Source: a virus
Length of the DNA stretch: 23,085 bases
IMG/VR virus record: IMGVR_UViG_3300027788_000092
Span: 1-23,085 of that record
Strand: one strand, 5' to 3'
The notes under the pieces: model-generated
What the model was told of the DNA's origin: nothing
The model's input: the letters and a program-made list of their open reading frames with translations, nothing else
Databases searched by the model: none
Program-made: the position numbers and the translations under genes
Shown: in pieces, positions 10,578 through 22,574 of the stretch
Layout of the letters: each line of letters opens with the position of its first letter
Numbering within the stretch: position 1 is the stretch's first letter

Positions 10578-10597
10578 AACTAATTCCAAAGAGATAA

Positions 10598-10629
10598 ATA
10601 AATACTATAAACCATTATAGTTATTTATA
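10598..10629. promoter_or_regulatory. Overlapping face-to-face late promoters on an inverted repeat
   Basis: TATAAATA on the minus strand (10629-10622) reads toward methyltransferase 2. ATAAATA on the plus strand (10598-10604, within GATAAATAAATA) reads toward the tail-tube gene. The two boxes are the outer arms of one imperfect inverted repeat: 10598-10610 pairs with 10615-10628 around an ACCA loop with one bulged T at 10621. The minus-strand box is an exact match to the T4 late consensus; the plus-strand box lacks the first T. Confidence 0.55.
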
Positions 10630-10638
10630 GGATTTAAG

Positions 10639-11133
10639 ATGGCAGAAATAATTAACAACTACTTATCACCTTCGAACTTTACGATTAGTATTCAGCGCAT
10701 ACCTAATATTGAGTTCTTTGTTCAGAGCCTGACACTCCCAAGTTTACAGGCAACGCCTACAGAGCGTGAAACGCCACTGACTACTATGTTTGAAATAAAT
10801 GATAAGTTACAGTACAGCGATTTAGAATTATCATTTATCCTTGATGAGAATATGAATAACTATAAAGAAATACTTGAATGGTTAGAAGGTATTAGTGGAT
10901 CAAGAACTCCTGACGCCACTAAAGCATTGAGCCTTTCAAAATACGGATTTAAATCTGATATTATCGCAACGATTACAAACTCTCATAAGAATCCAAATGT
11001 TAAGTTTACATTCAGGGACTGTTTCCCAACATCTTTAGGATCGGTTGAACTTAATGTGAATACTCAAGACGTTGCCTATGCTACTTGCAGTGTCACAATG
11101 CGATACGATATTTTTACAATGGAACAACTATAA
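10639..11133 (+). CDS. 19: Tail tube protein (gp19-like)
   Basis: At 164 residues it matches T4 gp19 (163). It begins SPSNFTISIQRIPNIEFFVQ, then LTLPSLQATPTERETPLTTM, LQYSDLELSFILDENMNNY, EILEWLEGI, and ends with a beta-rich half (VKFTFRDCFPTSLGSVELNV and SVTMRYDIFTM). This F.V..L.LP....E...T...D..L.F..DE...NW/Y-E---W order is typical of T4-type tail tube proteins, which stack as rings inside the contractile sheath. A good AGGA ribosome binding site lies six bases before ATG. It is a lone structural gene among replication genes, with a possible late promoter just upstream. A baseplate or initiator paralogue of the tube is the alternative. Confidence 0.68.
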   Translation: MAEIINNYLSPSNFTISIQRIPNIEFFVQSLTLPSLQATPTERETPLTTMFEINDKLQYSDLELSFILDENMNNYKEILEWLEGISGSRTPDATKALSLSKYGFKSDIIATITNSHKNPNVKFTFRDCFPTSLGSVELNVNTQDVAYATCSVTMRYDIFTMEQL

Positions 11134-14876: not shown

Positions 14877-15410
14877 ATGGCTAAGAAAAGGAACTATGTA
14901 AACAATAAAGACCTACTTGCGGCACTAATAGCCTACAGGGAAAGTGTAGCAGAGGCAGAAGAAGGTGGTGATAAGAAACCACAAGTCCCCGATTATATCG
15001 GTAAGTGTATTATGATGATTGCTCAAAGATTGGCAACACGCCCAAACTTTAGTGGATATATGTATAAGGAAGAGATGATCTCAGATGGTATTGAGAATTG
15101 TCTACAATATATACATAACTTCAATCCAGAGAAATCTCAAAATCCGTTTGCTTATTTTACTCAAATCATTTGGTATGCATTCCTACGTCGAATCTCTAAA
15201 GAGAAGAAGCAAATGTATATTAAATTCAAAGCTTCCCAGAGACAGATGTTTGATTCAGAAACCTTTGATGATTCCACAGGAACCATGGTTGGCAGCGTAC
15301 TGCCTGACTATATCAGTGAATTCATTGATGACTTTGAAACTAAGAACAGGCTGGCGAAAGAAAAGAATAAAGCGAAACAACAAGAACAGCAAGAACAAGA
15401 CGAGAAGTAA
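14877..15410 (+). CDS. 55: Late-transcription sigma factor gp55
   Basis: This 177-residue protein aligns with T4 gp55 (185), the minimal sigma factor that directs host RNA polymerase to TATAAATA late promoters. The N-terminus KRNYVNNKDLLAALIAYRES mirrors T4 NYVNNKELLQAI. The core NFSGYMYKEEMISDGIENCL, HNFNPEKSQNPFAYFTQII and AFLRRISKEKKQ matches the region-2-like segment that binds the beta' coiled coil and the -10 element. The C-terminus ends in a lysine-, glutamine- and glutamate-rich tail (KNKAKQQEQQEQDEK) instead of the hydrophobic clamp-binding SLDFL motif of T4. It is the first gene of its operon; peptide deformylase starts four bases after its stop. Confidence 0.94.
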   Translation: MAKKRNYVNNKDLLAALIAYRESVAEAEEGGDKKPQVPDYIGKCIMMIAQRLATRPNFSGYMYKEEMISDGIENCLQYIHNFNPEKSQNPFAYFTQIIWYAFLRRISKEKKQMYIKFKASQRQMFDSETFDDSTGTMVGSVLPDYISEFIDDFETKNRLAKEKNKAKQQEQQEQDEK

Positions 15411-21382: not shown

Positions 21383-21411
21383 TTGACATCTAACCTAAAC
21401 TGTGTTATAAT
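21383..21411 (+). promoter_or_regulatory. Consensus promoter of the Sm-like/glutaredoxin/MazG operon
   Basis: TTGACA 21383-21388, 17-base spacer, TATAAT 21406-21411, beginning six bases after the gp43 stop. A CAGGAAA ribosome binding site follows before the ATG at 21444. The next three genes overlap by four bases each and should be one message. Confidence 0.9.
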
Positions 21412-21731: not shown

Positions 21732-21943
21732 TAGAAATATATGGAAAGACTAATTGTTCCTATTGTAACATGGCTAAACAGCTTTGTGAATCAAAGAAAT
21801 TAGACTTTGTGTATAAATCAATGGGTGAGGACTTTTCGCAAGAAGAGTTCTTTACTCAGTTCCCAACTGCAAGAACCTTTCCACAGATTACAATGGATGG
21901 TAAAGCAATTGGTGGATTTAATGAATTGAGAGAATTATTATGA
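21728..21943 (+). CDS. Glutaredoxin
   Basis: This 71-residue protein is a minimal glutaredoxin. The active site is CSYC (Cys10 and Cys13) at the end of the first strand; the cis-proline is in TFPQI (Pro52), and the glutathione-binding GGF lies at 62-64. It would supply electrons to ribonucleotide reductase or reduce protein disulfides, like T4 NrdC, which has CVYC. The reductase itself is not in this window. Overlaps of four bases on both sides (ATGA) couple it to the Sm-like and MazG-like genes, a nucleotide-metabolism context that suits the reductase role. Confidence 0.92.
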   Translation: MIEIYGKTNCSYCNMAKQLCESKKLDFVYKSMGEDFSQEEFFTQFPTARTFPQITMDGKAIGGFNELRELL

Positions 21944-22353
21944 GTAAAGATTGGGTAAAAGATATTGTTGACATGCAGTCAAAATACAGAACACATAGCT
22001 GGGTAGCAAACTCAGATATAGAAAAGTTGAAAGCGTTCTTGGAATTCAGAGTTAACTTCCTACAAGAAGAACTTGATGAAACAAGAACTGCTCAAAAAGA
22101 TATCGACTCCGAAGAAATCGTTGATGGTTTAGTTGACCTTTGTGTAGTGGCAATCGGTACTCTTGATGCCTTCGGAGTCGATCCTTATAAAGCTTGGGAC
22201 GCAGTTCTCAAAGCAAACATGGCAAAAGAAGTAGGTATTAAAGAAGGAAGACCCAACCCGCTTGGGTTACCTGATCTAATGAAACCTGAAGGATGGGTTG
22301 CTCCATCACATGAAGGTAACCACGGTATCCTGCCAACATTAAGAGAAGTATAA
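21940..22353 (+). CDS. MazG-like nucleotide pyrophosphohydrolase
   Basis: The 137-residue all-helical protein has the metal-binding pattern of MazG and phosphoribosyl-ATP pyrophosphohydrolase relatives: EELDE (Glu43, Glu44, Glu47) in one helix, then EIVD (Glu59 and Asp62) in the next. DGLVDLCVVAIGTLDAFG and AWDAVLKANMAKE complete the fold. The tail GRPNPLGLPDLMKPEGWVAP is typical of the phage branch. Such enzymes cleave nucleoside triphosphates to monophosphates and pyrophosphate; the preferred nucleotide is unknown, and depletion of alarmone or of unwanted dNTPs are both proposed for phage forms. It is the last gene of the operon. Confidence 0.85.
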   Translation: MSKDWVKDIVDMQSKYRTHSWVANSDIEKLKAFLEFRVNFLQEELDETRTAQKDIDSEEIVDGLVDLCVVAIGTLDAFGVDPYKAWDAVLKANMAKEVGIKEGRPNPLGLPDLMKPEGWVAPSHEGNHGILPTLREV

Positions 22354-22366
22354 CTTTCATGAATAC

Positions 22367-22449
22367 TGTCTCCTATCTGTATATATATTTTATATGTAAC
22401 AGAATTGTAACACAATTGTTGCATTAGAACCACCGCAATATAGGAGACA
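22367..22449 (+). promoter_or_regulatory. Structured leader that could mask a ribosome binding site
   Basis: A perfect 10-base inverted repeat, TGTCTCCTAT (22367-22376) and ATAGGAGACA (22440-22449), would place the AGGAG ribosome binding site of the 26-residue peptide gene in a stem. Nested inside is a second hairpin: TGTAAC-AG-AATTGT (22395-22408) pairs with ACAATTGTTGCA (22412-22423) around an AAC loop, with a two-base bulge. The region 22354-22612 otherwise holds that peptide gene and a promoter. No U-tract follows, so it does not look like a terminator. Confidence 0.6.
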
Positions 22450-22451
22450 AC

Positions 22452-22532
22452 ATGACAAAAGCATTTAAAGCCTTTCATAAATTTATGAAATCAGGTAGAA
22501 TTAGCAAAATAATCAACGAATACTGTAAATAA
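22452..22532 (+). CDS. Small basic peptide, 26 aa
   Basis: ATG 22452 follows a strong TAGGAGA ribosome binding site and opens a 26-codon frame beginning MTKAFKAFHKFMKSGRISK and ending IINEYCK. The net charge is strongly positive and the first half is amphipathic when drawn as a helix. The ribosome binding site lies in the right arm of a 10-base inverted repeat, so translation may be controlled by RNA structure. Codons 8-13 lie inside an 18-base perfect palindrome (22473-22490). No promoter is seen directly upstream, so it probably depends on read-through from 21383. It may instead be part of a regulatory RNA. Confidence 0.55.
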   Translation: MTKAFKAFHKFMKSGRISKIINEYCK

Positions 22533-22545
22533 TCCCAAATAACTA

Positions 22546-22574
22546 TTGACATCATAAAGAAACTATGGTATAAT
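22546..22574 (+). promoter_or_regulatory. Consensus promoter of the 107-aa gene
   Basis: TTGACA 22546-22551, 17-base spacer, TATAAT 22569-22574, 38 bases before the ATG at 22613. From the -10 box onward it shares 25 identical bases with the minus-strand promoter at 4446-4418. Confidence 0.9.

Follow-up and report, generated by a model that had tools for sequence, protein, structure and literature searches.

A candidate timing switch ahead of a conserved small-peptide gene in uncultured T4-like phages, with Pho-box-like repeats over a predicted late start

The closest described counterparts of the leader considered here are those of the T4 genes e, soc, 49 and I-TevI, where early or middle read-through RNA hides the Shine-Dalgarno (SD) sequence and/or the AUG, and where a late promoter lies in the region encoding the 5' strand of the hairpin, such that late RNA lacks that strand (PMC3014915). 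The T4 late box itself, TATAAATA, is found at -13 to -6 and obeys a spacing rule (PMC1524935), and the cyanophage late box is known as NATAAATA. A further relevant class is that of the Pho-box promoters, bound by the host regulator PhoB; pho boxes predicted in phages have proved unreliable and are often not bound (PMC10976474). The leader described below likely works like the T4 late-bypass ribosome-binding-site hairpins: as in e, soc, 49 and I-TevI, SD and AUG are predicted to be hidden in the long RNA, with a box so placed that late RNA would lose the 5' strand. Unlike them, it precedes a 26-residue peptide gene, belongs to uncultured phages, has a non-consensus box in the record analysed, and carries Pho-box-like repeats between the box and the ribosome site.

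The window, by which we mean the whole 23-kb IMG/VR record, comes from a T4-like phage, with a gene set that includes DNA polymerase, a gp46/47-like ATPase and phosphoesterase, a UvsY-type protein and a tail tube; no close isolate was found, the best polymerase identity being 44%. The phage encodes its own gp55-type late sigma factor (14877-15410; phrog_234 late sigma transcription factor, E 3.3e-64; this and all features below are on the + strand). A perfect sigma-70 promoter, TTGACA-N17-TATAAT, at 21383-21411 would transcribe a 95-aa gene, a glutaredoxin gene and a mazG-like gene (PRA-PH/MazG-type, 137 aa; 21940-22353; Pfam PF01503, E 1.4e-9) and continue into the leader, while another, that of the next gene, lies 3' of the peptide gene at 22546-22574. 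No + strand terminator-like site was detected from 18000 to the window end, so that long early transcripts should traverse the leader. The two strands of the window together hold twelve such perfect promoters, which are unusually uniform.

Within the leader, TGTCTCCTAT (22367-22376) and ATAGGAGACA (22440-22449) are exact reverse complements of 10 bases each, spanning 83 bases. The right arm contains the SD sequence AGGAG (22442-22446), 5 nt 5' of the ATG at 22452, and the left arm forms the anti-SD strand of this outer stem. Minimum free energy (MFE) folds also contain an inner hairpin of 12 pairs (22376-22403), a second small hairpin, and five predicted pairs between UCAUG (22357-22361) and the start-codon region CAUGA (22451-22455); the stop codon of the mazG-like gene is 3 nt 5' of the UCAUG strand. 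Folding z-scores are -5.5 for 22366-22451 and -5.2 for 22354-22470. The bare inverted repeat is near chance and not exceptional, the window holding 6 perfect repeats 10 bp or longer (loops of at most 100) as against 3.0 +/- 2.0 in Markov sequences; because such a repeat is not rare in an AT-rich window, the decision rests on relatives. Rfam at gathering score returned two tRNAs only for the window, both away from the leader, and at a relaxed threshold gave no credible leader match for nine related loci. Searched for directly, the exact 10-bp arms turned up in contigs nearly identical to the window and otherwise just once, in an unrelated chance match (L092).

With the mazG-like protein as query, a scan of viral contigs yielded 80 relatives. 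Pairing of the SD with the left arm has a probability of about 1.0 in the window clade, in L031, L033 and L029, and in a clade (L037, L046, L038 and L032) whose arms are GTTTTCTTTG and CAAGGAGAAC. A hand comparison of this last clade with the window shows four pairs changed on both sides and two pairs changed on one side, and its downstream gene differs from that of the window. In L031, L033, L029, L040 and L016 the upstream arm pairs too, often across the AUG. Native arm pairs are the more stable when compared with swapped ones, at -10.7 versus -8.6 kcal/mol in 12 clades, of which related ones are not fully independent (0 of 50,000 permutations), and pairing is weak in several group members (L019, L022, L025, L144). 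Judged from these comparisons the hairpin is conserved by covariation, though not uniformly among members, and with left-arm pairing at P about 1.0 the SD and AUG are sequestered in the predicted long transcripts.

It could be argued that this structure is a by-product of DNA sites, namely palindrome-like repeats and a TATA box, with the left arm matching the SD as a pyrimidine-rich promoter flank. TGTAACA and TGTTACA units would pair mutually by design, the count of 10-bp repeats is near chance as noted, a distant group has box and repeats without a left arm, and in the window's group even shuffled left arms pair at a mean P of 0.2-0.6. However, native arms outpair shuffled as well as swapped arms in most clades, the pairing often spans the start codon, and complementarity is kept by arms of quite different sequence, and we therefore consider a by-product unlikely. 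Since the left arm is absent from the wider family (alignment A2), the hairpin is best seen as a feature of one lineage.

The gene behind this leader (22452-22532) has 26 codons and encodes MTKAFKAFHKFMKSGRISKIINEYCK, a member of what we call the MKSGR family of 22-45 residue peptides. Peptides of the same type, among them MAKAFKAFHKLMKSGRLHKVIKILS and MKYIAKQYKKFHHMMKRNRIQNVWRKVL, occupy the same place in many relatives. The window clade has a dN/dS of 0.11, and a class of 28-residue peptides one of 0.53; the value of 0.15 in a distant class is biased low because its members were chosen by motif. Homologues and selection identify the ORF as a genuine small gene that is conserved. The family is absent from the family libraries and isolate genomes searched: PHROGs gave the peptides insignificant matches only, and BLAST of the region, the peptides and the leader-gene proteins against 50,697 isolated phages gave no convincing relatives. 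Certain phages (L037 3744-4150, L109 8710-9100) have an insertion between leader and MKSGR peptide that encodes a small protein with a signal peptide, and the N terminus of the inserted protein in L109 and L194, MAKxLGIVA, resembles the peptide starts of other phages.

A first-pass annotation of this DNA had described the inverted repeat, the inner 12-pair hairpin and the 26-codon ORF, all of which are present as claimed, and its assignment of the ORF to a real peptide gene is borne out by the homologues and dN/dS. It had further read the structure as translational control rather than a terminator, with which the SD-hiding fold, its covariation and the lack of a + strand terminator-like site agree, and the covariation search in relatives that it proposed as a check found covariation, including in the L037 clade. 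The box and repeats described next, which suggest how the structure operates, were not part of that reading.

Directly 3' of the left arm, and inside the hairpin, lies TATATATA (22380-22387), at the place where related elements have the T4-type late box TATAAATA; the consensus box itself occupies this position in the sister elements L028, L037 and L040. TATAAATA is strand-biased in the relatives, and 30 of its 47 copies lie at most 60 nt upstream of ORF starts, against about 3% expected, which by position marks it as the late promoter in these phages. The resemblance to T4 and cyanophage late promoters (TATAAATA or NATAAATA, with gp55) thus comprises the relatives' box, the gp55 homologue in the window and the enrichment upstream of genes. 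The window differs from them in that its copy, TATATATA, has one mismatch and is neither TATAAATA nor NATAAATA, and in that repeats come at the start site; beyond this case TATATATA is not seen near gene starts in these genomes (1 of 18). Late RNA is predicted to start at about 22393, 6 nt past the box, with initiation at the variant TATATATA a matter that we infer. In the MFE fold of this predicted late RNA the SD and AUG are unpaired, and in RNAs cut 6 nt 3' of the box mean SD pairing drops to 0.07-0.46 (window clade, L037 clade, L031, L033 and L029).

NATAAATA is rarer than chance in the window (5 against 12 copies), and on the + strand the only gene it precedes is that of the tail tube, itself a late gene. 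There (10591-10655), the upstream box, GATAAATAAATA, forms part of the left strand of a hairpin that extends toward the SD (AUAAAUACUAUAA..UUAUAGUUAUUUAU), and an RNA started past the box would lose that strand; late-bypass logic may possibly apply here too, on a weak fold (z -1.6).

The box and the repeats that follow it form about 45 distinct elements in viral contigs, 25 with NATAAATA and 20 with TATATATA, and most of them precede either peptides that end in ...F[D/H]..MKSGR... or a small signal-peptide-bearing protein. TATA[A/T]ATA directly follows the left arm in all collected elements, but the collection pattern required it, and the association is judged by control scans: GTATA[A/T]ATA plus repeats gave 52 matches in viral contigs, versus 0 for a G/C variant and 0 for a scrambled box. 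Many elements in which NATAAATA lies 3-5 nt upstream were also recovered when four-unit repeats were scanned for with no box required. The TATATATA box variant and repeats have a separate use in L103, L117, L127, L128, L129 and L142: there a 92-aa protein bearing a signal peptide (MKKLIVAILLLSPAFVHAD...) is preceded by TATATATA and two copies of the TGTAACA repeat. In other viral contigs (L244 1356-1450, L182, L222) TGTAACA 11-mers form long, dense arrays that lack a late box.

These control scans bear on another account, in which the hairpin regulates translation without any internal promoter, either constitutively or as a thermosensor, a protein-opened structure, or one opened by ribosomes ending the upstream gene. 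A strong stem does cover SD and AUG, and the upstream stop codon is close to the strand that pairs with the start codon in the window, and in relatives similarly close to the leader, so that the left arm might be perturbed by a ribosome terminating there. Yet the left arm is followed by a T4-late-type TATA box in every pattern-selected element and G/C or scrambled boxes are never found, the upstream gene varies among relatives, and the repeats would be left unexplained. In the window the core of the left arm starts 13 nt past the stop codon, a distance that would leave little of it within reach of a terminating ribosome. We regard this account as improbable. Of the controls suggested by the first-pass annotation, nuclease, temperature or a bound protein give way to promoter choice, which the late-promoter-like box inside the structure suggests and which is probably the trigger. 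The product of the same operon that had been proposed as Sm-like is a 95-aa protein without a Pfam match, whose PHROG match is of unknown function. Coupling to translation of the mazG-like gene is not specific, since related phages, in which the leader likewise starts soon after an upstream stop, have another gene 5' of it.

Between box and ribosome site, at 22395-22423, three units TGTAACA, TGTAACA and TGTTGCA, separated by gaat and caat, form a Pho-box-like array of 11-nt direct repeats. TGTAACAGAATTGTAACA consists of two direct 7-mers of the type TGT[C/A]A[C/T]A at an 11-nt period, and 22395-22412 is the top site of the window, at 15.7 bits, for a PhoB matrix derived from 59 ChIP sites of E. 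coli PhoB (median real site 14.1). The homologous site ranks first by this matrix in G001 (156 kb) and third in G003. Among 61 proteins encoded downstream of bacterial three-unit arrays made of these same words about 14 concern phosphate: six of PstS type, three of PstC type, three Pit and two phosphate porins (Porin_O_P). Compared with Pho-box promoters, both E. coli pstS and the PhoB-bound cyanophage promoters (P-SSM2 pstS, S-PM2), the window shares tandem 11-nt direct repeats and the 18-mer motif of E. coli PhoB sites. It differs in that the array lies downstream of a -10-like box rather than upstream, that no -10 follows the array at the usual distance, and that the gene downstream is not a phosphate gene.

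No TATAAT-like hexamer about 10 nt past the array was seen on inspection of the window and of alignments A2 and A3, and on this ground we rejected that PhoB, bound at an upstream array, activates a sigma-70 promoter. With the array lying over the start and no -10 downstream, hindrance is to be expected rather than activation, if PhoB binds. RNA pairing as the purpose of the repeats is disfavoured for the distant group. In all 20 aligned elements of the wider family both of the first two units are of the TGTAACA type (one element having C as the first base of its unit 2), and the perfectly complementary TGTTACA never occurs as either unit; the inner part of the structure, taken by the first-pass annotation for a regulatory hairpin, reads better as Pho-box-type 11-nt direct repeats. 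In the 20 distant elements ATAAATA, TGTAACA-N4-.GTAACA and AGGAGA are invariant and the sequence 5' of the box is all variable, which makes the box-repeat unit the older part and the SD-hiding arm an addition in the window's group. Alignment A2 (columns 83-112) also contains, after the fourth repeat, a small nested hairpin (GUAAC/GUUAC around CCC/GGG) with compensatory changes, which is absent from the window.

We hypothesize that the array is a Pho-box-type operator for host PhoB; given how often predicted phage pho boxes are unbound, binding is put forward as hypothesis, and the sign of its effect is a guess. A somewhat doubtful but substantial alternative is that a phage-encoded regulator or an RNA-binding protein, rather than host PhoB, binds the repeats. 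Repeats that begin beside the late start are typical of a repressor or a leader RNA element, a -10 at PhoB spacing is missing downstream, and the distant group has its extra small covarying hairpin. On the other hand the 11-nt spacing, the 7-mer sequence and the degenerate third unit fit known PhoB arrays, such arrays precede phosphate genes in bacteria, and the E. coli PhoB matrix finds its best site of the window here.

Taken together, we favour, with some confidence, a reading in which the leader is a timing switch of the conserved small-peptide gene, composed of an early hairpin lock, a late internal start and a Pho-type operator. Read-through RNAs from the sigma-70 operon would fold such that 22357-22376 pairs with SD and start codon, which would prevent synthesis of the peptide. 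At late times of infection the gp55-type sigma would start RNA from the TATA box at 22380-22387, near 22393, and since this RNA would not contain the left arm its ribosome site would be open and the peptide made. The operator would be the repeats, which cover about +3 to +31 of that RNA; host PhoB in its phosphorylated form would most likely act there as a hindrance to the late start and so tie the peptide to the host phosphate state. The gene is thus probably switched on only late, and possibly according to host phosphate state. Computed support for this reading comes from the conserved covarying hairpin, the real conserved gene, the late sigma factor in the window, the strict association of box and repeats and the PhoB-site match, while initiation at TATATATA, PhoB binding and its sign, and a function for the peptide are what we infer. 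More tentatively, it is possible that this is a widespread and so far undescribed regulatory module of marine T4-like phages, in which a PhoB operator array over a late start gates MKSGR peptides by the host phosphate signal, the hairpin being a second lock in the window's lineage.

As far as our literature searches reached, a Pho-box-like operator at a late promoter is apparently undescribed; reported PhoB control of phages concerns cyanophage genes with pho boxes upstream of the start, whereas the sites here lie over the predicted late start. If correct, our reading would extend the 'late only' translation lock of T4 to uncultured phages, and would provide a direct link from a host nutrient-stress regulator to the late programme of a phage. 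Because the regulatory region is more conserved than the peptide sequence, the MKSGR peptides would be good candidates for a late function in which timing is critical or which relates to phosphate.
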